A stretch of 64,000 nt of DNA from Nocardia asteroides (GTDB lineage: Bacteria; Actinomycetota; Actinomycetes; Mycobacteriales; Mycobacteriaceae): NCBI RefSeq assembly GCF_900637185.1, contig NZ_LR134352.1, positions 620,001 through 684,000 on the forward strand. The letters run 5' to 3'. The translations under genes were made by a program, and so were the position numbers. The notes beneath the pieces were generated by a model. It did not search any database. It saw only the letters and a program-made list of their open reading frames with translations, and was not told the DNA's origin. This document shows, one piece after another, positions 13,490-23,353 of this stretch; position 1 is the first letter of the stretch; each line of letters begins with the position of its first letter.

Positions 13490-16400
13490 GTGACTACCAC
13501 CGGTGACCGCGCACAGACAGACTTTCCGCCCGAACCCCCCGGTGAGGATTTCGGCCGCCAGCCACCGCACGACATGGCGGCCGAGCAGTCCGTCCTCGGC
13601 GGCATGCTGCTCAGCAAGGACGCCATCGCCGACGTGGTCGAGGTGCTGCGCCCCGGCGACTTCTACCGTCCCGCGCACCAGGCCGTCTACGACACCATCC
13701 TCGACCTGTACGGCCGCGGCGAGCCCGCCGACCCCGTCACCGTCGCCGCCGGTCTCGACCGGCGCGGCGAGCTCAAGCGCATCGGCGGTCCCCCCTACCT
13801 GGTGACGCTCACCCAGACCGTCCCCACCGCCGCCAACGCCGGCTTCTACGCCGAGATCGTCGCCGAGAAGGCCATCCTGCGCCGCCTCGTCGAAGCAGGC
13901 ACCCGCATCGTCCAGTTCGGCTACGCCGGCGCCGACGGCCAGGACATCGCCGAGGTCGTCGACCGCGCCCAGGCCGAGGTCTACGAGGTCACCGAACGCC
14001 GCACCACCGAAGACTTCATGCCGCTGGAAGAACTCCTCCAGCCCACCATGGACGAAATCGACTCCATCGCCTCCCGCGGCGGCATCTCCCTCGGCGTCCC
14101 CACCGGCTTCACCGAACTCGACGAACTCACCAACGGCCTCCACCCGGGCCAGATGATCATCGTCGCGGCCCGCCCCGGTGTCGGTAAGGCACTGGCGCTG
14201 GACACCCCGCTACCGACGCCGAACGGGTGGACCACCATGGGCGAGGTCCGCGTCGGTGACGAGCTGGTCGGGCCCGACGGCCGACCGACCCGCGTTGTCG
14301 CGACCACCGAGGTCATGTCTGATCGCCCCTGCTACGAGGTCGAGTTCTCCGACGGCACGGTGATCATCGCCGACGAGGAACACCAGTGGACCACCCTGGC
14401 GCCGACCTTGGCGCCGCACCCGGTCGTCCGCACCACCGGCGACATCGCGCACAGCCTGCGCACCCCGCGCGACCACTTCGCGCACGCGGTGCCGCGCACT
14501 GCCCGGTCCGAGGCGCGCCAGATCGTCGACGTCCGCAAGATCGATCCGCTGCCGGTTCGCTGCGTCCAGGTCGACAACACCGACCACATGTACCTCGCGG
14601 GCCGCTCCCTGGTGCCCACGCACAACTCGACGCTCGGCATGGACTTCATGCGCAGCTGCTCGATCAAGCACGGCCTGGCCAGCGTCATCTTCTCGCTCGA
14701 GATGAGCCGCACCGAGATCGTCATGCGTCTGCTCTCCGCCGAAGCCAAGATCAAGCTCGGCGACATGCGTTCGGGCCGCATGAGCGACGACGACTGGACC
14801 AAGCTCGCACGCCGTATGAGCGAGATCAGCGAAGCGCCGCTCTTCGTCGACGACTCACCGAACCTGACGATGATGGAGATCCGGGCCAAGGCGCGACGGC
14901 TCAAGCAACGCCACGACCTGAAGCTCGTCGTGGTCGACTACCTCCAGCTGATGACCTCGGGTAAGAAGGTCGAATCGCGTCAGCAGGAAGTCTCGGACTT
15001 CTCGCGAAACCTCAAGCTGCTGGCCAAGGAACTCGAAGTTCCGGTGATCGCGATCTCGCAGCTGAACCGTGGTCCGGAACAGCGAACCGACAAGCGGCCC
15101 ATGGTCTCCGACCTTCGCGAATCGGGCTGCATGCCCGCCTCGACGCGAATCCTGCGCGCCGACACCGGCGCCGAGGTATCCCTGGGCGAGCTACTCGCCA
15201 GTGGCGAACAGCCGCTCGTATGGTCGCTCGACGAGCGCATGCGAATGGTCGCTCGGCCGATGGTGAAGGTGTTCCCGAGCGGTCGCAAGGAGGTGTTCCG
15301 GCTGCGCCTGGCCTCCGGGCGCGAGGTCGAAGCCACCGGCAACCACCCGTTCCTGACAGTCGACGGCTGGATCGCGCTCGACAAGCTCACCGTCGGCGAC
15401 CGACTCGCCACGCCGCGCAACGTCCCCGAGCCGGTGCACACCACCCGACTGCCCGAGGACGAGATCGTTCTGCTCGCGCACATGATCGGCGACGGCTCCT
15501 GTGTGAAGCGCCAGCCCATCCGCTACGCCAGCGTCGACGAGGAGAACCTCACCGCTGTCACCGCAGCCGCACAGCACTTCGGTGTCAGTGCGGTTCGTGA
15601 CGAGTACGCCGCGGCCCGCGTCACCACACTGCGCCTACCCGCGCCATATCAGCTCACGCACGGCAAGCGGAATCCGATCGCCGCCTGGCTCGATTCGCTC
15701 GGCTTGTTCGGCCTGCGCAGCTACGAAAAGTTCGTTCCCGAACCGATTTTCGCGCTGCCCAATGATCAGGTCGCATTGTTCCTGCGCCACCTGTGGGCCA
15801 CGGATGGATCGGTGCGCTGGGACGCGAAGGCCCGCCAGGCGCGCGTCTACTACGCCTCGACCAGCCGTCGCCTGATCGACGACGTCAACCAGTTGCTGCT
15901 GCGTCTCGGCGTGCACGGCCGGATCAAGACCGTCCGTAAGGGCGACTACCGTCCCTGCTACCACCTGGTGATCGACGGTGGCGAGAACCAGTCGACATTC
16001 CTGCGTGATGTCGGCGTGCACGGCGCCCGCGGCAAGTCCGCCGAAGCCGTCCTCACCGAGCTGGCCCCGATGACCCGCAACCCGAATGTCGACACCGTTC
16101 CCGCCGAAGTCTGGAACCGTGTCCGAACCCTGTTGGCCGACAAGGAGATGACGCACCGCGAATTCTCCGCTGCGATGGGCTCCCGCTTCTGTGGCTCCAC
16201 CATGTGGAAGCGGTCTCCCAGCCGATCGAGGCTGGCACGCGTCGCCGCCGTCCTCGACGACGCGGACATCGATATGCTCGCCACGAACGACGTGTTCTGG
16301 GACAAGATCGTCGAAATCACCAGTCTCGGCGAACAAGACGTCTACGACGGAACCGTGCCAGGCACCCACAACTTCGTGGCGCAGGGCATTTCGGCTCACA

Positions 16401-16585
16401 ATTCACTCGAGCAGGACGCCGACATGGTCATCCTGCTGCACCGCCCCGACGCCTTCGAACGCGACGACCCCCGCGGTGGCGAGGCCGACCTCATCGTCGG
16501 CAAGCACCGTAACGGCCCCACCGCCACCATCACCGTCGCCCACCAGCTGCACCTGAGCCGCTTCGTGGACATGGCCCGGGGCTGA
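13490..16585 (+). CDS. dnaB: Replicative DNA helicase DnaB with two inteins
   Basis: A 1031-residue precursor. Removing two inteins (residues 234-379 and 547-971) leaves a 460-residue helicase of normal length. The N-terminal domain (about 25-190) contains AAEQSVLGGMLLS; the RecA-type ATPase follows, with its Walker A split by intein 1 (ARPGVGK before, STLGMDF after) and Walker B in LVVVDYLQLM. Intein 2 interrupts the conserved stretch SDLRESG / SLEQDADM. The GTG start has GAGAGGA about 12 nt upstream. The mature hexamer unwinds DNA at the fork. Because the P-loop is split, no ATPase can form until splicing, so splicing efficiency may control replication. Confidence 0.96.
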   Translation: MTTTGDRAQTDFPPEPPGEDFGRQPPHDMAAEQSVLGGMLLSKDAIADVVEVLRPGDFYRPAHQAVYDTILDLYGRGEPADPVTVAAGLDRRGELKRIGGPPYLVTLTQTVPTAANAGFYAEIVAEKAILRRLVEAGTRIVQFGYAGADGQDIAEVVDRAQAEVYEVTERRTTEDFMPLEELLQPTMDEIDSIASRGGISLGVPTGFTELDELTNGLHPGQMIIVAARPGVGKALALDTPLPTPNGWTTMGEVRVGDELVGPDGRPTRVVATTEVMSDRPCYEVEFSDGTVIIADEEHQWTTLAPTLAPHPVVRTTGDIAHSLRTPRDHFAHAVPRTARSEARQIVDVRKIDPLPVRCVQVDNTDHMYLAGRSLVPTHNSTLGMDFMRSCSIKHGLASVIFSLEMSRTEIVMRLLSAEAKIKLGDMRSGRMSDDDWTKLARRMSEISEAPLFVDDSPNLTMMEIRAKARRLKQRHDLKLVVVDYLQLMTSGKKVESRQQEVSDFSRNLKLLAKELEVPVIAISQLNRGPEQRTDKRPMVSDLRESGCMPASTRILRADTGAEVSLGELLASGEQPLVWSLDERMRMVARPMVKVFPSGRKEVFRLRLASGREVEATGNHPFLTVDGWIALDKLTVGDRLATPRNVPEPVHTTRLPEDEIVLLAHMIGDGSCVKRQPIRYASVDEENLTAVTAAAQHFGVSAVRDEYAAARVTTLRLPAPYQLTHGKRNPIAAWLDSLGLFGLRSYEKFVPEPIFALPNDQVALFLRHLWATDGSVRWDAKARQARVYYASTSRRLIDDVNQLLLRLGVHGRIKTVRKGDYRPCYHLVIDGGENQSTFLRDVGVHGARGKSAEAVLTELAPMTRNPNVDTVPAEVWNRVRTLLADKEMTHREFSAAMGSRFCGSTMWKRSPSRSRLARVAAVLDDADIDMLATNDVFWDKIVEITSLGEQDVYDGTVPGTHNFVAQGISAHNSLEQDADMVILLHRPDAFERDDPRGGEADLIVGKHRNGPTATITVAHQLHLSRFVDMARG
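14189..14626 (+). other. Class 3 mini-intein in the DnaB Walker A loop
   Basis: 146 residues, beginning ALALDTPLPTPNGW and ending VPTHN before Ser+1 of the extein. Residue 1 is Ala, so the ordinary N-terminal nucleophile is absent. The class 3 WCT triplet is visible instead: Trp in block B (DEEHQW, residue 67), Cys in block F (PVRC, residue 125) and Thr in block G (PTHN, residue 144). There is no homing endonuclease domain. Size, site and chemistry resemble the mycobacterial DnaBi1 intein, reported to respond to oxidative stress through its catalytic Cys. Confidence 0.93.
15128..16402 (+). other. Class 1 LAGLIDADG intein at the second DnaB site
   Basis: 425 residues, beginning CMPASTRILRADTG (Cys1) and ending QGISAHN before Ser+1. 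Block B is ATGNHPFLTVDGW and block F is VYDGTVPGTHNFVAQG. Two LAGLIDADG endonuclease motifs are visible, LLAHMIGDGS and FLRHLWATDGS, so the homing endonuclease is probably intact. Insertion is at SDLRESG / SLEQDAD, the conserved site used by other DnaB inteins. Confidence 0.94.
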
Positions 16586-16647
16586 TCGGCTGCCGCTCGT
16601 TGCCCGACGGGTTCTGGCTGCAGGTGCTGGATGCAGACGACGGGCGC

Positions 16648-16983
16648 TCAGTGCGGCAGGCATGCCGACGAGTCGACGGGGTTACTCGCGAGGCGCGGGG
16701 ATCGTGTGGCCCAGCTCGTGGTGCAGACGAACACCTCGTCGAGGAGAGCGGGCAGTGGCGTGCCGAGGACCGTGCTCACCGAGATCAGGTTGGACACGGT
16801 GGGGTTGGGCGGTGTCCTCGGCTCGCGGGTGCGCAGGCCCGCTTCGAGTAGCTGGTAGTACTACCTGCTGACGCCCGCGGCAAGCGCAACCTGCTCCTGG
16901 GTGAGGCCCTTGGCCACGCGCAATCCGGCCAGATGCTGTCCAAGAATCGCCACGAGCTCGCTCTCGACGGCGGATTCGGACAT
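16648..16983 (-). pseudogene. XRE-family regulator with a premature stop in its HTH
   Basis: From ATG 16983 the frame reads MSESAVESELVAILGQ..., then a helix-turn-helix GLTQEQVALAAGVSR, then TAG at 16863-16861 (codon 41), and continues in the same frame as YYQLLEAGL...NLISVSTVLGTPLPALLDE to TGA at 16650-16648. Only the one nonsense codon breaks an otherwise intact 111-residue XRE protein, so this is a recent pseudogene or a sequencing error. It is the first of three broken genes downstream of dnaB. Confidence 0.8.
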
Positions 16984-17065
16984 CTCTACGGGGCTTCCGA
17001 GCCGAGAAGTTCCGTCGACCGGCTATAACCGGCATTTCCTGCCCGGCCGGGGCAGTGAATCGGGT

Positions 17066-17400
17066 TCAGGCGGGCGCAGTCGTGAGTTTGGTCGGGTTGG
17101 TCACGGAGTAGATGCCGGTGACGGTGCCGTCGATGGCGATATCGAGGACGACGGCCAGGGGCGCGGTGCCGTCGAAGATGACCGCGCACGGGCCCCCGCC
17201 GACGATGCGTCGACTCACCCGGTAGTCGGCGAGGACCGCCGCGCGATGCCGGCGAAGTCTGCGGTGACTGTGCACGGGGTCGAGGCTGGTGGCGATGCCG
17301 GTGCCGCCACCGTCAGTCCACAGGCTGATTCCGGAGACACGACGACGAGCAGTTCAATCCCATCATCGCCCATCGCGGCGACGAATCGTTCGGCGGCGGC
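17066..17400 (-). pseudogene. SigJ-like ECF sigma factor C-terminal remnant
   Basis: The last about 60 codons read VSRRIVGGGPCAVIFDGTAPL...TGIYSVTNPTKL, the typical end of the SnoaL-like C-terminal domain of SigJ-type ECF sigma factors. Further upstream, in shifted frames, come LWTDGGGTGIA and ERFVAAMGDDGIELL, also parts of that domain. The sigma2/sigma4 DNA-binding regions are gone and at least two frameshifts are present, so no functional product is expected. Confidence 0.65.
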
Positions 17401-17589
17401 GCAGCACGTTCAGGGGTCGATTTGGCGCATGCCTGAGAACGCGGGCACGGTGTGCGGGCGCATGGGCGCGGGCACAGTGGGCGGGGCTGACGGACCACGG
17501 GTTGGCGACCGGGCGACCATCTCGGTGCGCGGTGAGCGAACATCTTATGCCTGCCAGCGCAGCCGGCTGAATTCCGCGCCGCGGCGCGA

Positions 17590-18388
17590 CCCGCGACGAT
17601 GTCGTAGACTTTCGCAGTGCGGGCACGCTGACCACCACGCCTGACGGCCATCCCCGCCAGCTGCTGTCGGCACCCGGGCTCGCGGAATTGGGGCTGAGCT
17701 CGTTCGACACCATCGAACATCCCGCCAGACTTGCCGAGGGGCCGACCATCTGAAGACCGTCATAGACGACGGCGCACTGCGCGGCACCGAACTGCCCGCT
17801 CGCACCCTGCCCACCGCGACCGCCGTGGCCGACGCCGCGCACGCGGGCGAGCTGGCCGTAATCGCCCATGCCGCCACCGAAGCCGAGGTGGGATCGCCCT
17901 TGCGGCGGGCATGGAGGGACTCACCCATGTGCGGAGGGCCGTACCGAGCGGACCGCCAAACTGGTCGAGCAGATCGCGAGAGCGGACATCTTCGTGATCA
18001 CGACTCTCGCCTACTTCGAAGCGGTCATAAACCAAGACGCCACCACCACCGACTGTGCCCAGACAGGCTCGTTCGAGGATGCCCTGCGGGTGACACGCGC
18101 ACTGCACCTCACCGGCGCACCGCCCCCTGGCCGGCACCGACGCTAATCCATATGCGCCGCGGCACGGTAGCGGGTTTCATCGCGAACTGGCGATGCGCAT
18201 CGAAGCGGGCGTGCCGACGGCGCTGCCCTAACGTCCGGGACCAGTGGACCCGCCGACCGATTCGGCCTGACCGACCCGTGGCCGGATCGCAGGGATTGCG
18301 AGCCGACATGCTGCTGTGTCACCGGCAACCAAACCGACATCGCCGCGATCACGTCCATCGCCGATGTGGGACGCCCCTGTGTCAATTA
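17590..18388 (+). pseudogene. Amidohydrolase remnant with several frameshifts
   Basis: Fragments in different plus frames line up in the order of a metal-dependent amidohydrolase: DDVVDFRSAGTLTTTPDGHP, then DHLKTVIDDGA, VADAAHAGELAVIAHAATEAE, then after a shift KLVEQIARADIFVITTLAYFEAV, then AGTDANPYAPRHGSGFHRELA, and a final NQTDIAAITSIADV. The N-terminal HxH metal half is missing and at least three frameshifts interrupt the rest. The order and spacing make an old, decayed gene clear even though no long frame survives. Confidence 0.7.
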
Positions 18389-19239
18389 TTCCTGTTGCAA
18401 TCTTTCACATCTCCGAGATACACTAGCAGCTATAGATATCACAGCCAAAGCGGGTCGAATTCTACAATAATCACAATTGAGCGGGCCCATTACTCCTATA
18501 ATCACGTCTTCGAATAGTTATCCACCAGCATGTTGGACTGCGAGACCGCCATCGATACCGATTATTGAAGTCCCGTTGATAGAGTCGCCTAAAATACTCC
18601 CCGGCGGACCGGTGTCGAGAAAAGCGATTCCAGGCGATTTATGCAACCGCTAATCGGCCAATAGTCCATCAAGCTTAAACTCCCATTCACCCCGCCGCCA
18701 GAATCACCCGTTCCCGCCTCGCAGCCTGATAGAGCTACGGGACTCGGTACACATGGTCCGTCATGCCGGCGTAGCTAGAATCCGCCTCTCATGAGGTCTC
18801 GGACCAGATTTGGAATTTGACGCTCTGCGGGCACGGCATGCTCGCGAAGTGAAAGGTAGCCAATGCTACCAACGCAACGCTACGGCTAAGTGACTTGGGG
18901 TACTTGAACAAACCCATACAGATGGCACAAACAAATCCCATTCCCCGTGGCAGCCGGACTGCGGCATATACCTTCGCCAAGACAACGTGCAGAAGGCCTG
19001 TCACCTGTAGCAAGGATACTTCAAGCACCGCGACCTACGTGGCGATTGGGTAGCCCTCGCGATGGCCACCCGAACCAACGCTCCCACGGCGGGTGATCCC
19101 GGTCGGCTAGACGCCGTCGTTCTACATGCTGGACGTCCGGGACATCACCTGGCTTGAAGGCATCGACCAACATCTCGCCACTAGTCCGCGTTTCATCGGA
19201 AAATGCAACCTGACCACAGGCCCGGTGTAAAATCACGCT
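18389..19239. other. AT-rich gene-free left flank of the genomic island
   Basis: About 850 bp with much lower GC than the neighbouring kilobases, most strikingly 18389-18620. I see no frame with a ribosome site and plausible codon use. A short plus-strand stretch near 19126-19220 (reading MLDVRDITWLEGIDQHLA) may be a remnant. The composition change marks the left edge of the island. No tRNA or obvious att repeat was found. Confidence 0.55.
19228..19233 (+). promoter_or_regulatory. Possible -10 element for leaderless TtcA-like mRNA
   Basis: TAAAAT ends 6 nt before GTG 19240. There is no Shine-Dalgarno sequence, so transcription may begin at or near the start codon. No convincing -35 box was found. 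Confidence 0.35.
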
Positions 19240-20238
19240 GTGGACATAGTGATACGAAGTGAACTGGCGGATAGGGTTGCGGGAACAATCGAACGGTACA
19301 GTCTCCTGCCGTCTACACAAATAGCGGTTGCTTGCTCCGGCGGCAAAGATTCGATGTTTGCGTGCCTTGTTCTCCGCCAGCTTGGATACGAAGTGCATCC
19401 GATTATAATTGATATGGACTTCACAAAGAATTGGGGAGGTAAAATTCGCGATCGTTTGCAAGCGCTCCACTTTTCGGCAACTATTCTTGAGCCTCGATCC
19501 CACAGTACAAAGACTTTTTTTGACCCAATTGGACTATTGTCACTTCGACAGAATCTCGATGCCCTTGATTCTATTGGACCGGACGATGTACAGACAGCGA
19601 CACCGTGCACCAACTGCTACAACTCCAAAATACTGGCACTGAAGCAGTATCTAGATGAGCTCAGAATTTCGAGGGTGGTGTTTGCCCACCACGCGACAGA
19701 TTCAGTCTCATCATTTCTGAAATCCGCGCTTATGTACATGGACCGATGGGACCAAGGAAACGAAAGATACGATCGCGATAGATTCCATCGGCTTGTCAAA
19801 GTAGTTCATGGTCAGCTTCATGAGCATCCCGCGGCGATCCTAGATCGACTTAGCCAATTGGCCGACGCTGGAGTTGCCACTACAGACGAGCCTCCAGTGC
19901 AGAGGCTGGTTTCAAATATGGAATCACCTCTTATAGTCAGACCACTATCGGCGATTTGGGAATCAGAAATAATGGCATCCAAAAACGCCAACTCTGTACC
20001 AACTGAACCATCCGGTTGTGCACACTCACTAAGTCCGTCAACGCAGACGCCGCGAGAGCTGATTCAATTCACACTCACACAAAATTGGGAGGCGACCGGG
20101 ATTTCAACTACATTTCTTGAGCTTATCGAAAGGAACATTGATTCCAATGGATTCGCCCTAAATGACGCACGCAGTAGGCGAACAGAGATACTCGGTTTGC
20201 AATACAAGCCTGCGAAAGGCGGCCTCGAGAAGCTTTAG
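19240..20238 (+). CDS. TtcA-like PP-loop ATPase (predicted Fe-S tRNA thiolase family)
   Basis: 332 residues. The PP-loop ACSGGKDSM (33-38) binds ATP and adenylates a substrate. CTNC (Cys123, Cys126) follows at the spacing of E. coli TtcA CSLC, then VVFAHHATDS where TtcA has its GHHRDD motif, then RPLSAIWESEI and Cys260, matching the third TtcA cluster cysteine. A [4Fe-4S]-dependent thiolation or related chemistry is therefore likely; the substrate could be tRNA or something else. GC is low and codons such as ATA and AGA are frequent, unlike the host. It converges on the MazG-like/TM-GAF pair with a 22-bp gap. GTG 19240 is the first start after an in-frame TAA. Confidence 0.8.
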   Translation: MDIVIRSELADRVAGTIERYSLLPSTQIAVACSGGKDSMFACLVLRQLGYEVHPIIIDMDFTKNWGGKIRDRLQALHFSATILEPRSHSTKTFFDPIGLLSLRQNLDALDSIGPDDVQTATPCTNCYNSKILALKQYLDELRISRVVFAHHATDSVSSFLKSALMYMDRWDQGNERYDRDRFHRLVKVVHGQLHEHPAAILDRLSQLADAGVATTDEPPVQRLVSNMESPLIVRPLSAIWESEIMASKNANSVPTEPSGCAHSLSPSTQTPRELIQFTLTQNWEATGISTTFLELIERNIDSNGFALNDARSRRTEILGLQYKPAKGGLEKL

Positions 20239-20260
20239 AACCAATAAGGACGATGATCAA

Positions 20261-20974
20261 TTATCGCCAGAGTCGTAGCTGATCTTTCTCCAACTTTTCA
20301 TTGACAGCGATATTCAGATCTATCTCGATCACTCTGGCTATTTCGTCAACCGAATCGAGGACCGCGCCAAGATCCTCTGCAAAGGAGCTCGCATTTTTTT
20401 GGTGCAAGCTCCGCGTTCCGCGGGGGATATGAGCAACCACAGACAGAACACGCTCTGCCAGTGTCAGACCTGCGTTCAGGGCAAGGTTAGCTGAATACTC
20501 GTCATCCGAATCGATACCCTCGACCTTAACATTCTTCGATGTCCACACATCAGATAGGTCAACAGGAAGTCGATTCGCGATGGCAGCCGAAACAAAAAGA
20601 ACATCTGCGAGCTCATCGCCGATCGAGACATTGCAACTCGGCTCCGTCGCGATTCCAGAACGGACTCTAAAGAATTTCATTACTTCAAATACTTCTTCGG
20701 TCAGAAGGAGGCACTTTTGACCAAGGGATTCGCCAGCAGTACCGCGTTCCGATTCGAGCTCTGCCACCTCTTTCTGCAGAGATACTAATAGCGTCGACGA
20801 AATTCCCCGAATGCAGCATTCGCCTCTGGCAACAGCTGCAGGTTCCATGTCGCTCACGTGCCGGCTCCGCTCGCTTCGTCGGTTGGTGTATAAATCAGGG
20901 AAGCCAGGCGCGGCCGAATCGCGTAAACCGATTGGACGTTCGATCGAATTGTGGTTGTTGTCGACAAAAATCAC
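20261..20974 (-). CDS. MazG-like all-alpha NTP pyrophosphohydrolase
   Basis: 237 residues. The metal-binding signature of the MazG/all-alpha NTP-PPase superfamily is visible: EEVFEV (Glu94, Glu97) and GDELADVLF (Glu121, Asp124), followed by a helical region ending in NEKLEKDQLRLW. Such enzymes hydrolyse canonical or modified NTPs, or alarmone-type nucleotides. GTG 20974 lies 2 nt after the TM-GAF stop, with AGGAG inside the end of that gene, so the two are translationally coupled. The N-terminal about 60 residues are not conserved-looking. Low GC, as for its neighbours. The nucleotide substrate is not predictable. Confidence 0.75.
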   Translation of the reverse strand: MIFVDNNHNSIERPIGLRDSAAPGFPDLYTNRRSERSRHVSDMEPAAVARGECCIRGISSTLLVSLQKEVAELESERGTAGESLGQKCLLLTEEVFEVMKFFRVRSGIATEPSCNVSIGDELADVLFVSAAIANRLPVDLSDVWTSKNVKVEGIDSDDEYSANLALNAGLTLAERVLSVVAHIPRGTRSLHQKNASSFAEDLGAVLDSVDEIARVIEIDLNIAVNEKLEKDQLRLWR

Positions 20975-20976
20975 GA

Positions 20977-21891
20977 CTACTCCTGCTCGGTCCGGATACC
21001 GATTGCAGCCTCATCGATCAAGCTGCCTCTCATTTGATAATCACCAATCGTTCGAACAAAATGCGGCTCCCAAACGCTCCAGGCCTCGTTCCAGAAATCT
21101 CTATCAACTTCAGCAAACATATTGATACGATTACGGGCCGTCACAGCAACGAATCCATAGAACTCTGAATTCAAGTCATAGATCGGAAACAAGGCCGTCG
21201 AATTGGTGCGATATGTGGCATCACGACCGAAATGGTCGTAGTCTGGATACTTAGAGATATCGGGAATTAGAAGTATCGGCGCTCGTTTGCCCAGATCAAC
21301 ATAGTTTCGATACAGTTTAGCAGCCTCGGTATTCTCATAGAAAGTTCTGTTCGATGCACGCTGTTGGAGACTTAGAGGTCGTTTTGTAGCCCAACACGCT
21401 ACCGTTAGTTTACCGTCACCCGCCCTCTTCATCAGGACCACCTCGACTGAAGTATTCTCTCCGAATCGTCGCTGCGACCACTGGTCCGCCAGGACGTGCT
21501 GAAAGAACGTCAGATATAATTTGACTCGACGGAGATAGCTTTCTTGCCACTCCGCATCGGTGGCTGTGACACCAAGCCGTGAGCGAATTTCGTTCTCATC
21601 GCCTAAGGCTTTGTTCACGGACCTAATCATCTCCAAAACCGCCGCGCTATGCTTGGGAAACTGCGCTTCGCGAATAGTCGTAGCAGACGCATTCAGGGTT
21701 GCAATTCCAACAATCAGAGCTACCGCTACTAGCGAAAATGAGATTTTCACAGCAGTTGTGTCTGCGTTTTTTACCAGCGCAACTAACACTGTGGTAAGGA
21801 CTACCGAAAGGACGTTGACTATCGATGTGGCGATGATCCACTCACGTTTTGTCGCTCCAAGAGCGATCCGGTCCAGCACACCACTCATCAT
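20977..21891 (-). CDS. Membrane-anchored GAF-like sensor protein
   Basis: 304 residues. Two hydrophobic helices (about 19-40 and 49-68) anchor it with a very short loop. The cytosolic part includes a helical linker and a C-terminal domain (about 110-285) whose end (STALFPIYDLNSEFYGFVAV) has GAF-domain character. The ligand is unknown. It is upstream of and coupled to the MazG-like gene, so a membrane sensor regulating a nucleotide hydrolase is a reasonable inference. The start is ATG 21891 or the next ATG at 21888; no strong ribosome site. Low GC. Confidence 0.65.
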   Translation of the reverse strand: MMSGVLDRIALGATKREWIIATSIVNVLSVVLTTVLVALVKNADTTAVKISFSLVAVALIVGIATLNASATTIREAQFPKHSAAVLEMIRSVNKALGDENEIRSRLGVTATDAEWQESYLRRVKLYLTFFQHVLADQWSQRRFGENTSVEVVLMKRAGDGKLTVACWATKRPLSLQQRASNRTFYENTEAAKLYRNYVDLGKRAPILLIPDISKYPDYDHFGRDATYRTNSTALFPIYDLNSEFYGFVAVTARNRINMFAEVDRDFWNEAWSVWEPHFVRTIGDYQMRGSLIDEAAIGIRTEQE

Positions 21892-22073
21892 GCTGCTGCG
21901 TCCAAGGTCGACAGATTATTCAGCATACGTGACCAATCTTCAACTGCCGTCGTGTCCCTGAACTATAGCCGGTGTGCGAAGGCCTGTGGTTGGGGACACG
22001 CAACTATGCTACTTGACCTGCGGCTACCGGTCCCGGCGCGAGATGTCCTGTCTTAGACGACCTTGATGGAGAG

Positions 22074-22098
22074 GACGCCTAGTCCACCATTAGGCGTC
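22074..22098. repeat. Inverted repeat at the right edge of the AT-rich island
   Basis: GACGCCTA (22074-22081) and its exact complement (22091-22098) with a 9-nt loop, about where GC content returns to the host level. It could be an operator, a weak hairpin or part of a recombination site. No matching copy was found at the left edge. Confidence 0.3.
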
Positions 22099-22175
22099 GA
22101 CTAGACCAGATAGTTGGGGCGAAAGGCTGGAGTCAGGGGTGGGGATGAAGACGTGGGCCAATCCGCGCTACACCG

Positions 22176-22454
22176 GTGCAGGCGACGGTGGTGGAGTCCG
22201 GGCATCGGGTGACGCGGACGTCGAACAATCCATTCGCCACGCATCGGGTGCGGATCGAGGTGACGTTCGTCCATCCGGAGTCGGGGGAAGAGCGGCGGAT
22301 GCGGAAGGAGTTCGCGATGAACGAGTTTCGGCGGGCTACCGCGAAGGCGATGGTGCGGCGGTTCGAGGCCGGGGCGCAGCTGCCGATGCTGGTGCGGGGG
22401 CGGGTCGGGGGTTTCGATGTGCCGCAGCGGCCGCAGTGGGTGGATCTGTGGTGA
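22176..22454 (+). CDS. Small conserved-looking hypothetical protein
   Basis: 92 residues with host-like GC-rich codons. The sequence has a beta-rich start (ATVVESGHRVTRTSNN) and a basic, helical middle (RRATAKAMVRRFEAG), with no membrane segment. It resembles the style of small actinobacterial DUF3592-like proteins but I cannot assign it. GTG 22176 lacks a good ribosome site, and the frame is open for nine more codons upstream, so it may be the 3' part of a gene truncated by the island boundary. Confidence 0.4.
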   Translation: MQATVVESGHRVTRTSNNPFATHRVRIEVTFVHPESGEERRMRKEFAMNEFRRATAKAMVRRFEAGAQLPMLVRGRVGGFDVPQRPQWVDLW

Positions 22455-22458
22455 CGGT

Positions 22459-22497
22459 GTCAGTGGGCGCGTCAGGGTGATGTCAGGGCGGTGTCAG
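22459..22497 (+). promoter_or_regulatory. Four GTCAG direct repeats at helical spacing
   Basis: GTCAG occurs at 22459, 22471, 22482 and 22493 (periods 12, 11, 11), 50-90 nt upstream of the hydrolase start. Repeats in phase with one DNA turn are typical of sites for OmpR/PhoP-type or SARP-type activators. Which protein binds cannot be told. Confidence 0.4.
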
Positions 22498-22549
22498 GTC
22501 GGCTCGCGACAGTAGTCGCATCAGAAACGAGCCGAAAGGGGTGGTCCAC

Positions 22550-23353
22550 ATGACCGCGCAGCATTCGAACGACACCGCGTGGGCCGGGATGGTCGCCGTC
22601 GACGACACCGAACTGGCTGTCACCGACAGCGGGGGCGACGGTATGCCGGTGCTCTACCTCAACGGGCAGTTCGCGACCCAGGGGTACTGGCGCAAGACCA
22701 TCGCCGAGCTGGGTCCGGGGTTCCGGCACATCACCTTCGACGAGCGGGCCCGTGGCCGCAAGTCCAAGCTGTCGGCCGATTACTCGTTCGAGGCGGCCGT
22801 GCGCGACGTGGACGCGGTGCTGGCGGCCCGCGGCGTGGAGCGGGCGCTGCTGGTGGGCTGGTCCTACGGCGCGGTCGTCGGCGCGCACTGGGCCGAACGG
22901 AATCCGGAGCGCACCATCGGCGCGGTGCTGGTCGACGGCGCCTTCCCGTACGACTGGCTCGACGACGCCATGGAGCAGCGGATCCGCACCCTGTTCAAGC
23001 GGCTGAGCTGGGTGATGCCGCTGCTGCGGCCGACCGGTCTGGCCCCGCGGATGACCGCCGCGCAGCAGGCCGAGAGCAATATCGAGCTCGGCAAGCTGTC
23101 CCGCACGAACGAACTGGGTCCGGTGCTGGACGCGATCACGGTGCCGGTGCGGTACGTGGTGGCCTCGGGTACCTCGTTCGGCAGCAAGCGCGACGAGCAG
23201 GAGAAGATCCGCAGCGGCCTGGACGCGGCGACCACCCGCAATCCGAACATCCGCATCGGCGCCAAGGTGCCGAGCAATCACGGTGCCCTGCTGCGCAAGG
23301 ACTTCCGTGCCATCGCCGATTCGGTGCGCGAGGTCGCCACGCTCGACCGGTGA
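22550..23353 (+). CDS. Alpha/beta-fold hydrolase
   Basis: 267 residues of the alpha/beta-hydrolase fold. LYLNGQF marks the oxyanion region, VGWSYGAVVG the nucleophile elbow (Ser in GWSYG), and SNHGALLRKDF near the C-terminus carries the likely catalytic His. No signal peptide. ATG 22550 is preferred: GAAAGGGG lies 9 nt upstream, whereas GTG 22541 abuts it. The esterase or lipase substrate is unknown. The GTCAG repeats upstream suggest activator control. Confidence 0.82.
   Translation: MTAQHSNDTAWAGMVAVDDTELAVTDSGGDGMPVLYLNGQFATQGYWRKTIAELGPGFRHITFDERARGRKSKLSADYSFEAAVRDVDAVLAARGVERALLVGWSYGAVVGAHWAERNPERTIGAVLVDGAFPYDWLDDAMEQRIRTLFKRLSWVMPLLRPTGLAPRMTAAQQAESNIELGKLSRTNELGPVLDAITVPVRYVVASGTSFGSKRDEQEKIRSGLDAATTRNPNIRIGAKVPSNHGALLRKDFRAIADSVREVATLDR

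Follow-up and report, generated by a model that had tools for sequence, protein, structure and literature searches.

A candidate anti-invader module of Nocardia asteroides built around a three-cysteine PP-loop enzyme

A distinctly AT-rich insert carrying three genes, designated A, B and C, lies at approximately 18.4-22.1 kb of the stretch of Nocardia asteroides DNA that was analyzed (64,000 nucleotides, referred to below as the window). By whatever mechanism it works, the cassette is probably a defence or conflict module. The more specific reading that we prefer is held tentatively, at somewhat less than an even chance for its mechanism as a whole: a module that moves horizontally, acts against invaders (probably phages) and works through (deoxy)nucleotide chemistry. 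A would hold an iron-sulfur (Fe-S) cluster through C123, C126 and C260, and its PP-loop would adenylate a pyrimidine ring oxygen and swap in sulfur, yielding a modified nucleotide; B would hydrolyze (deoxy)nucleoside triphosphates (NTPs) to monophosphates, so as to provide the substrate or to remove the product; C would be held in the membrane by its two helices, would recognize the modified nucleotide with its GAF domain and would act there to stop growth or phage production. In some related loci a trypsin-like protein might read the modified nucleotide in place of C. For A, a sulfur-modified pyrimidine nucleotide as product is the simplest story: the partners of A handle (deoxy)nucleotides, and a ligand-binding GAF fold is attached to the membrane. 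The observations that carry the reading are gene structure, motifs, linkage, sporadic distribution and a defence-type context; to these the folds modelled for B and C are added.

The three genes and their products

The principal features, by position in the window, are:

18389..22100, no strand: AT-rich insert (GC profile), dnaB on one side and chromosomal flank on the other
19240..20238, + strand: gene A, PP-loop ATPase with three invariant Cys, TtuA/TtcA-like sulfurtransferase, 332 amino acids (aa) (open reading frame (ORF), profile, alignment)
19336..19353, + strand: PP-loop SGGKDS, A residues 33-38, invariant in 12/12 aligned sequences
19606..19617, + strand: C-x2-C (C123, C126), predicted [4Fe-4S] ligands, invariant in 12/12; aligned with the TtuA CxxC in a weak segment
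20017..20019, + strand: third Cys, C260, predicted [4Fe-4S] ligand, invariant in 12/12; aligned with a TtuA Cys in a weak segment
20261..20974, - strand: gene B, all-alpha NTP pyrophosphohydrolase, two-module and dimeric-dUTPase-like, 237 aa (ORF, model)
20977..21891, - strand: gene C, two membrane helices and GAF domain, 304 aa (ORF, hydrophobic helices, fold model)
20980..20984, - strand: AGGAG, ribosome-binding-like site for gene B within the 3' end of gene C (sequence)

This is the three-gene island that the first-pass annotation had described, and its layout is confirmed: A and B are convergent, with stops 22 bp apart; the gap from C to B measures 2 nucleotides, the AGGAG lies inside C, and B starts with GTG.

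Conservation in A was read from 12 aligned sequences (the window and 11 relatives, among them those of Sphingopyxis, Bacteroidales and two further metagenome-assembled genomes (MAGs)). Thirty-eight columns are invariant. They include the PP-loop and the three Cys already placed by the earlier annotation at TtcA-type positions, the Asp of an HHxTD motif, and a C-terminal R-x2-R-x3-LG-x2-YK; A has five Cys in total, and the other two (Cys 32 and 42) vary. Against solved structures, a profile built from a 25-row alignment matched TtuA PH0300 (3.4e-20), a U34-tRNA thiolase (2.3e-5) and Cap9 (4e-4); the segments that pair the TtuA CxxC and third Cys with C123/C126 and C260 are weak (8.5 and 7.3 bits). 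No Pfam family was above its cut-off in A, and the curated equivalog cut-offs are far from reached: 35.6 against 450 bits for TtuA, 24.7 against 272 for TtcA. An ordinary TtcA is thereby ruled out as the identity of A, which these scores place on a branch of its own close to the Fe-S PP-loop sulfurtransferases. Thus the label "TtcA-like" holds for the PP-loop and the three Cys, and not for a true equivalog.

Among the Fe-S-dependent enzymes that transfer sulfur to tRNA, TtuA makes s2T, TtcA s2C and ThiI s4U (PMC7138817, available text). Might A, then, thiolate host or phage tRNA in the same manner, with B and C sensing or tuning the reaction, and protection coming from altered translation or from tRNA repair after phage or toxin damage? 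The tRNA thiolases among the nearest solved structures speak for this possibility; the distance from the equivalog cut-offs speaks against it, as does the finding that the partners are nucleotide and deoxynucleoside enzymes. The zinc fingers of TtuA, moreover, need more Cys than the five of A. We consider RNA thiolation unlikely. Far less likely still is a role in protein conjugation, in which A would activate a protein, perhaps C, by attaching a modified base to it, after the manner of the QueC-family Cap9 of type IV CBASS. The A profile does reach Cap9, and deazaguanylation by Cap9/Cap10 has been described (PMC11996544, PMC13279940; available text); nevertheless A is much closer to TtuA, with the three-Cys pattern, and a reading of the neighbours turned up no transglycosylase-like partner, no profile search having been aimed at one.

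For B the earlier designation, MazG-type, needs correction in part. The all-alpha NTP pyrophosphohydrolase motif stands: the residues of the metal-binding EExxE...ExxD (E93, E94, E97, E121 and D124) are invariant in 15/15 sequences. A simple MazG does not: the structure model is a two-module all-alpha fold of the dimeric-dUTPase-like kind (18% identity to the best structure), and the Pfam MazG score, 20.0 bits, falls just below the gathering cut-off of 22. By sequence B resembles iMazG and dCTPase. This kinship, the modelled fold and the retention of the catalytic acidic residues would also suit nucleotide depletion, with B as the effector that drains a pyrimidine deoxynucleoside triphosphate (dNTP) during infection, C as the membrane sensor of infection and A as a regulator. 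However, no needed dNTP would run short through the action of a plain dUTPase, and in the seven distant loci described below B is absent, two of them having a kinase/deoxyribosyltransferase-like fusion, which fits B as an accessory. Depletion is accordingly rated as rather improbable.

C was said to be a two-helix membrane protein with a GAF-like domain, and so it appears: hydrophobic helices lie at residues 19-37 and 48-66, and the fold search assigns a GAF fold to the model, whose neighbours include free methionine sulfoxide reductases as well as numerous sensors of small molecules. The Pfam GAF profile has no match in C, and scores 17.0 bits (cut-off 22.4) in the Bacteroidales relative. Weak Pfam matches of C (Peptidase_C36, 13.8 bits) were dismissed as chance.

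Linkage of the families and exchange of partners

Protein searches yielded 25 matches for A (24 non-self) and, in the second and third searches, 20 and 15; the self rows (P0001, P0026, P0046) were removed. Co-location was read from identical sizes of the longest contig across the match lists, which is a proxy for a shared contig. Such coincidences number 5 for A and C, 6 for A and B and 4 for B and C, and two sizes occur in all three lists; a jittered control (sizes multiplied by 0.8-1.25; 20,000 draws) gave a mean of approximately 0.03 per pair of lists and a maximum of 2. Sequence distances are correlated between A and C (r=0.89, 6 pairs; 1/720 permutations as high) and between A and B (r=0.99, 7 pairs; 1/5040 permutations as high). 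Micromonospora profundi has both A (Q3V37_25750) and C (Q3V37_25740). Judged from these comparisons, the linkage of the three families is real.

A scan of genome contigs with A produced seven loci, L002-L008, and here the partners change. In L004 (Sphingopyxis) and L005 (Bacteroidales) a relative of C lies close to A (C profile 55.4 and 42.6 bits, among 1150 ORFs). Abutting it is a deoxynucleoside kinase/deoxyribosyltransferase-like fusion (L004:8687-9877, L005:1876-3129): its kinase half matches at 1.3e-29 and 5.1e-28, respectively; its deoxyribosyltransferase-like domain is above the Pfam cut-off in L005, and its second half in L004 bears only a weak likeness to a CMP/hydroxymethyl-CMP hydrolase (1.1e-4). 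A NUDIX protein adjoins A in L004. In L002 (Acrocarpospora) and L003 (Nonomuraea) the gene after A encodes a deoxyribosyltransferase-like protein (in L002, the scanned copy, its Pfam match exceeds the cut-off; no match of the Acrocarpospora protein to solved structures at E<=0.01). The C profile has no match in L002 and L003; trypsin-like/TPR proteins lie near A in both (L002:11867-13606, L003:11879-13621; L002 scanned, below the Pfam cut-off) and are perhaps an alternative effector for which C has been swapped out. A P-loop kinase-like protein near A in L003 is below cut-off, and in L002 its gene is split into two frames. Since the partners differ among L002-L005 while A stays, A is the constant element, and the nucleotide enzymes and possible effectors are what change. 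L008, where no such cassette is seen, was rejected as a member of the A family (28% over residues 9-165 only); its neighbour resembles a GAF-HD-GYP protein by eye and was not taken as evidence.

A bolder version is worth stating, although we regard it as unlikely: A, as an Fe-S enzyme of the TtuA/TtcA branch, would make a free 2-thio-pyrimidine (deoxy)nucleotide whose form or level is adjusted by the partners (a dUTPase-like hydrolase or the kinase/deoxyribosyltransferase-like fusion) and which is read by interchangeable effectors (a membrane GAF protein or a trypsin-like protein), serving as an alarm or as a poison of phage DNA synthesis, and this would be the first sulfur-nucleotide immunity.

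Base composition, chromosomal site and gene context

The four 1-kb windows spanning 18001-22000 have a GC content of 0.50-0.58, and the remaining 60 one of 0.62-0.75. Compared with four neighbouring genes, the cassette has a GC content at third codon positions of 0.495 (against 0.893) and uses, per 1000 codons, AGA 11.4 times (against 0), ATA 13.7 times (against 1.4) and TTA 6.9 times (against 0). The base and codon contrast on which the first-pass annotation based its claim of recent transfer is thus borne out, and supports acquisition from a donor whose base composition differed.

Distribution is sporadic. A was found in 1/150 genomes of the genus and 1/394 of the class, and C in 1/298 of the order, the one being the present genome (a single contig of 6.98 Mb) each time; the samples overlap. 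Within the L002 and L004 families the counts for A are 2/250 and 1/249, and none of these three loci is new. In the phylum 4/396 genomes pass 1e-10: the present genome and three partial matches of 42-53 bits, which are not counted as carriers. A, B, C and the Sphingopyxis kinase fusion had no match in viral contigs. A deoxynucleoside-kinase-like stretch on an Acinetobacter plasmid was rejected as a related cassette: it accompanies thymidylate synthase and dfrA45, with no A or C annotated.

The flank on one side is

13490-16585 (window): dnaB, flanking the insert

and on the other, from approximately 22250, the chromosomal flank is common to the window and congener G1234. Five congener stretches around an alpha/beta hydrolase were compared, two of which (G1193 and G1234) also contain dnaB. 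In G1193 dnaB and the hydrolase are 755 bp apart and the cassette is missing between them; in G1234, the closest fetched congener by dnaB, IetAS directly follows dnaB at the site of the cassette (L042:4076-7641; IetS 7.5e-295, IetA 7e-144). A wider set comprised all 42 ORFs of at least 150 aa and GC <0.645 that end within 6.5 kb of dnaB in 42 congener stretches; ten members were examined singly. At E<=1e-15 PADLOC finds IetA, IetS, ShosA/PsyrA, TnsB and restriction-methyltransferase models in it, each in one member (the set is not wholly foreign, the G1193 hydrolase being among its members, and TnsB serves transposition); there were none in 42 of the 139 higher-GC ORFs near dnaB. These matches show that foreign-like genes at the dnaB site include genes assigned to defence by their sequences.

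The Sphingopyxis cassette of L004 has a phage-type integrase and a nucleotidyltransferase-HEPN protein on one side and, on the other, a PIN protein, a type I restriction subunit (3.7e-36), PtuB (4.9e-62), PtuA (1.1e-105) and a specificity subunit (1e-102). (The Septu PtuA/PtuB genes sit between the type I restriction and specificity subunits, L004:14114-20367.) With IetAS in G1234, this gives substance to the suggestion of a defence-type context made from the window. It also bears on a different explanation, that the cassette serves stress or housekeeping: A and B would handle damaged or thio-nucleotides, C would be a redox or small-molecule sensor, and invaders would have no part in it. The reductases and sensors among the fold neighbours of C are in keeping with such a role, and some relatives of A (L006, a Clostridia MAG, and L007, an unclassified MAG) lie in ordinary-looking gene neighbourhoods. 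The occurrence in a single genome of the genus, the foreign base composition, and the defence genes of L004 and G1234 all point the other way, and we judge it improbable.

(Footnote: further observations on the site. The approximately 2.6 kb from dnaB to A, 16586-19239, have no convincing gene and possibly hold decayed genes; a tblastx comparison (E<=1e-8) of 16586-19240 with 42 congener loci found no match. An Rfam scan of 16500-22600 had 0 matches at E<=0.5. Promoter-like sites (3; 3.5 expected, standard deviation 1.6) and terminator-like sites (6; 3.4 expected, standard deviation 1.9) give no clear signal. Among 20 of the 28 repeat families listed there were no convincing flanking direct repeats, the mark of an attachment site, and no tRNA genes were found in the window. 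The dnaB gene holds intein sequence (Intein_splicing 1.3e-22, LAGLIDADG_3 5.4e-26), by eye probably two inteins, and its open frame runs from 466 to 1295 aa across the congeners listed.)

The proposal weighed and compared with known systems

What weighs against the anti-invader module set out at the beginning? 1) The exact A-B-C trio is found in 0/7 of the scanned loci: the B profile matches in 0/7 and that of C in only 2/7. 2) Shared host ancestry could also give the A-C and A-B distance correlations. 3) The relatives of A in L006 and L007 have no comparable cassette around them, and A is therefore not exclusively a cassette gene. (Both directly precede a similar small protein of unknown family, of which the L006 copy was scanned: L006:9995-11384, L007:9986-11374.) 4) A small-molecule substrate for A is unproven, because the substrate of TtcA and TtuA, so far as known, is tRNA. 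5) There is no match in the plasmid records (72,556, searched with A, C, the Sphingopyxis A and the Sphingopyxis membrane-GAF protein) or in the phage records (50,697, searched with A). 6) The low-GC/high-GC contrast at dnaB sets foreign-like against native-like genes, rather than this site against others.

Two outcomes had been named in advance as fatal to the earlier annotation: families that are never adjacent, and an already-named system of the same three families. What was found is repeated co-location and no PADLOC model; in the 2023 copy none of A, B and C matches any family at E<=1. Nor was a paper describing the A-B-C composition found in open-licence PubMed Central (PMC), subscription papers being mostly outside its coverage, and the trio is not described in the available text of PMC7159879 or PMC10853773. 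The claim that no named system has this composition holds to that extent, and we rate the cassette as a variant of nucleotide-based conflict systems.

With the TtuA/TtcA tRNA thiolases A has in common the SGGKDS loop, the C-x2-C with its third Cys, and the Asp of HHxTD; it differs in its scores, in its invariant C-terminal motif and in living with nucleotide enzymes. B, in its turn, stands apart from the dimeric dUTPases, MazG and dCTPP1 by its 18% identity to the best structure and its Pfam score just under the MazG cut-off. LarE, like A a three-Cys PP-loop enzyme, carries a [4Fe-4S] cluster and puts sulfur into a nucleotide cofactor precursor, a precedent for a free nucleotide substrate (PMC9283937, available text). 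The pathway that it serves, that of the nickel-pincer nucleotide, is a different one. To our knowledge LarE has no membrane GAF or dUTPase-like partner.

Kongming uses dITP as its immune signal, and a deoxynucleotide kinase takes part (PMC12948488, available text). The likeness lies in a non-canonical deoxynucleotide as signal, which is what is proposed here, and in the deoxynucleoside kinase of L004 and L005; the difference is that no deaminase or NADase was noticed here. Cap9 of type IV CBASS, QatC (QueC-family) and DndC are likewise PP-loop enzymes recruited into anti-phage systems, as far as the available texts describe them; A differs in belonging, by its sequence, to the TtuA/TtcA branch, and the cassette in its lack of PADLOC matches. 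Several recent immune systems depend on unusual nucleotides or have borrowed PP-loop enzymes from tRNA biology. If the proposal is true, the cassette would extend nucleotide-based immunity to sulfur chemistry, with parts that change across actinobacterial, Sphingopyxis and Bacteroidales loci, and it offers a small, concrete and testable set of genes.

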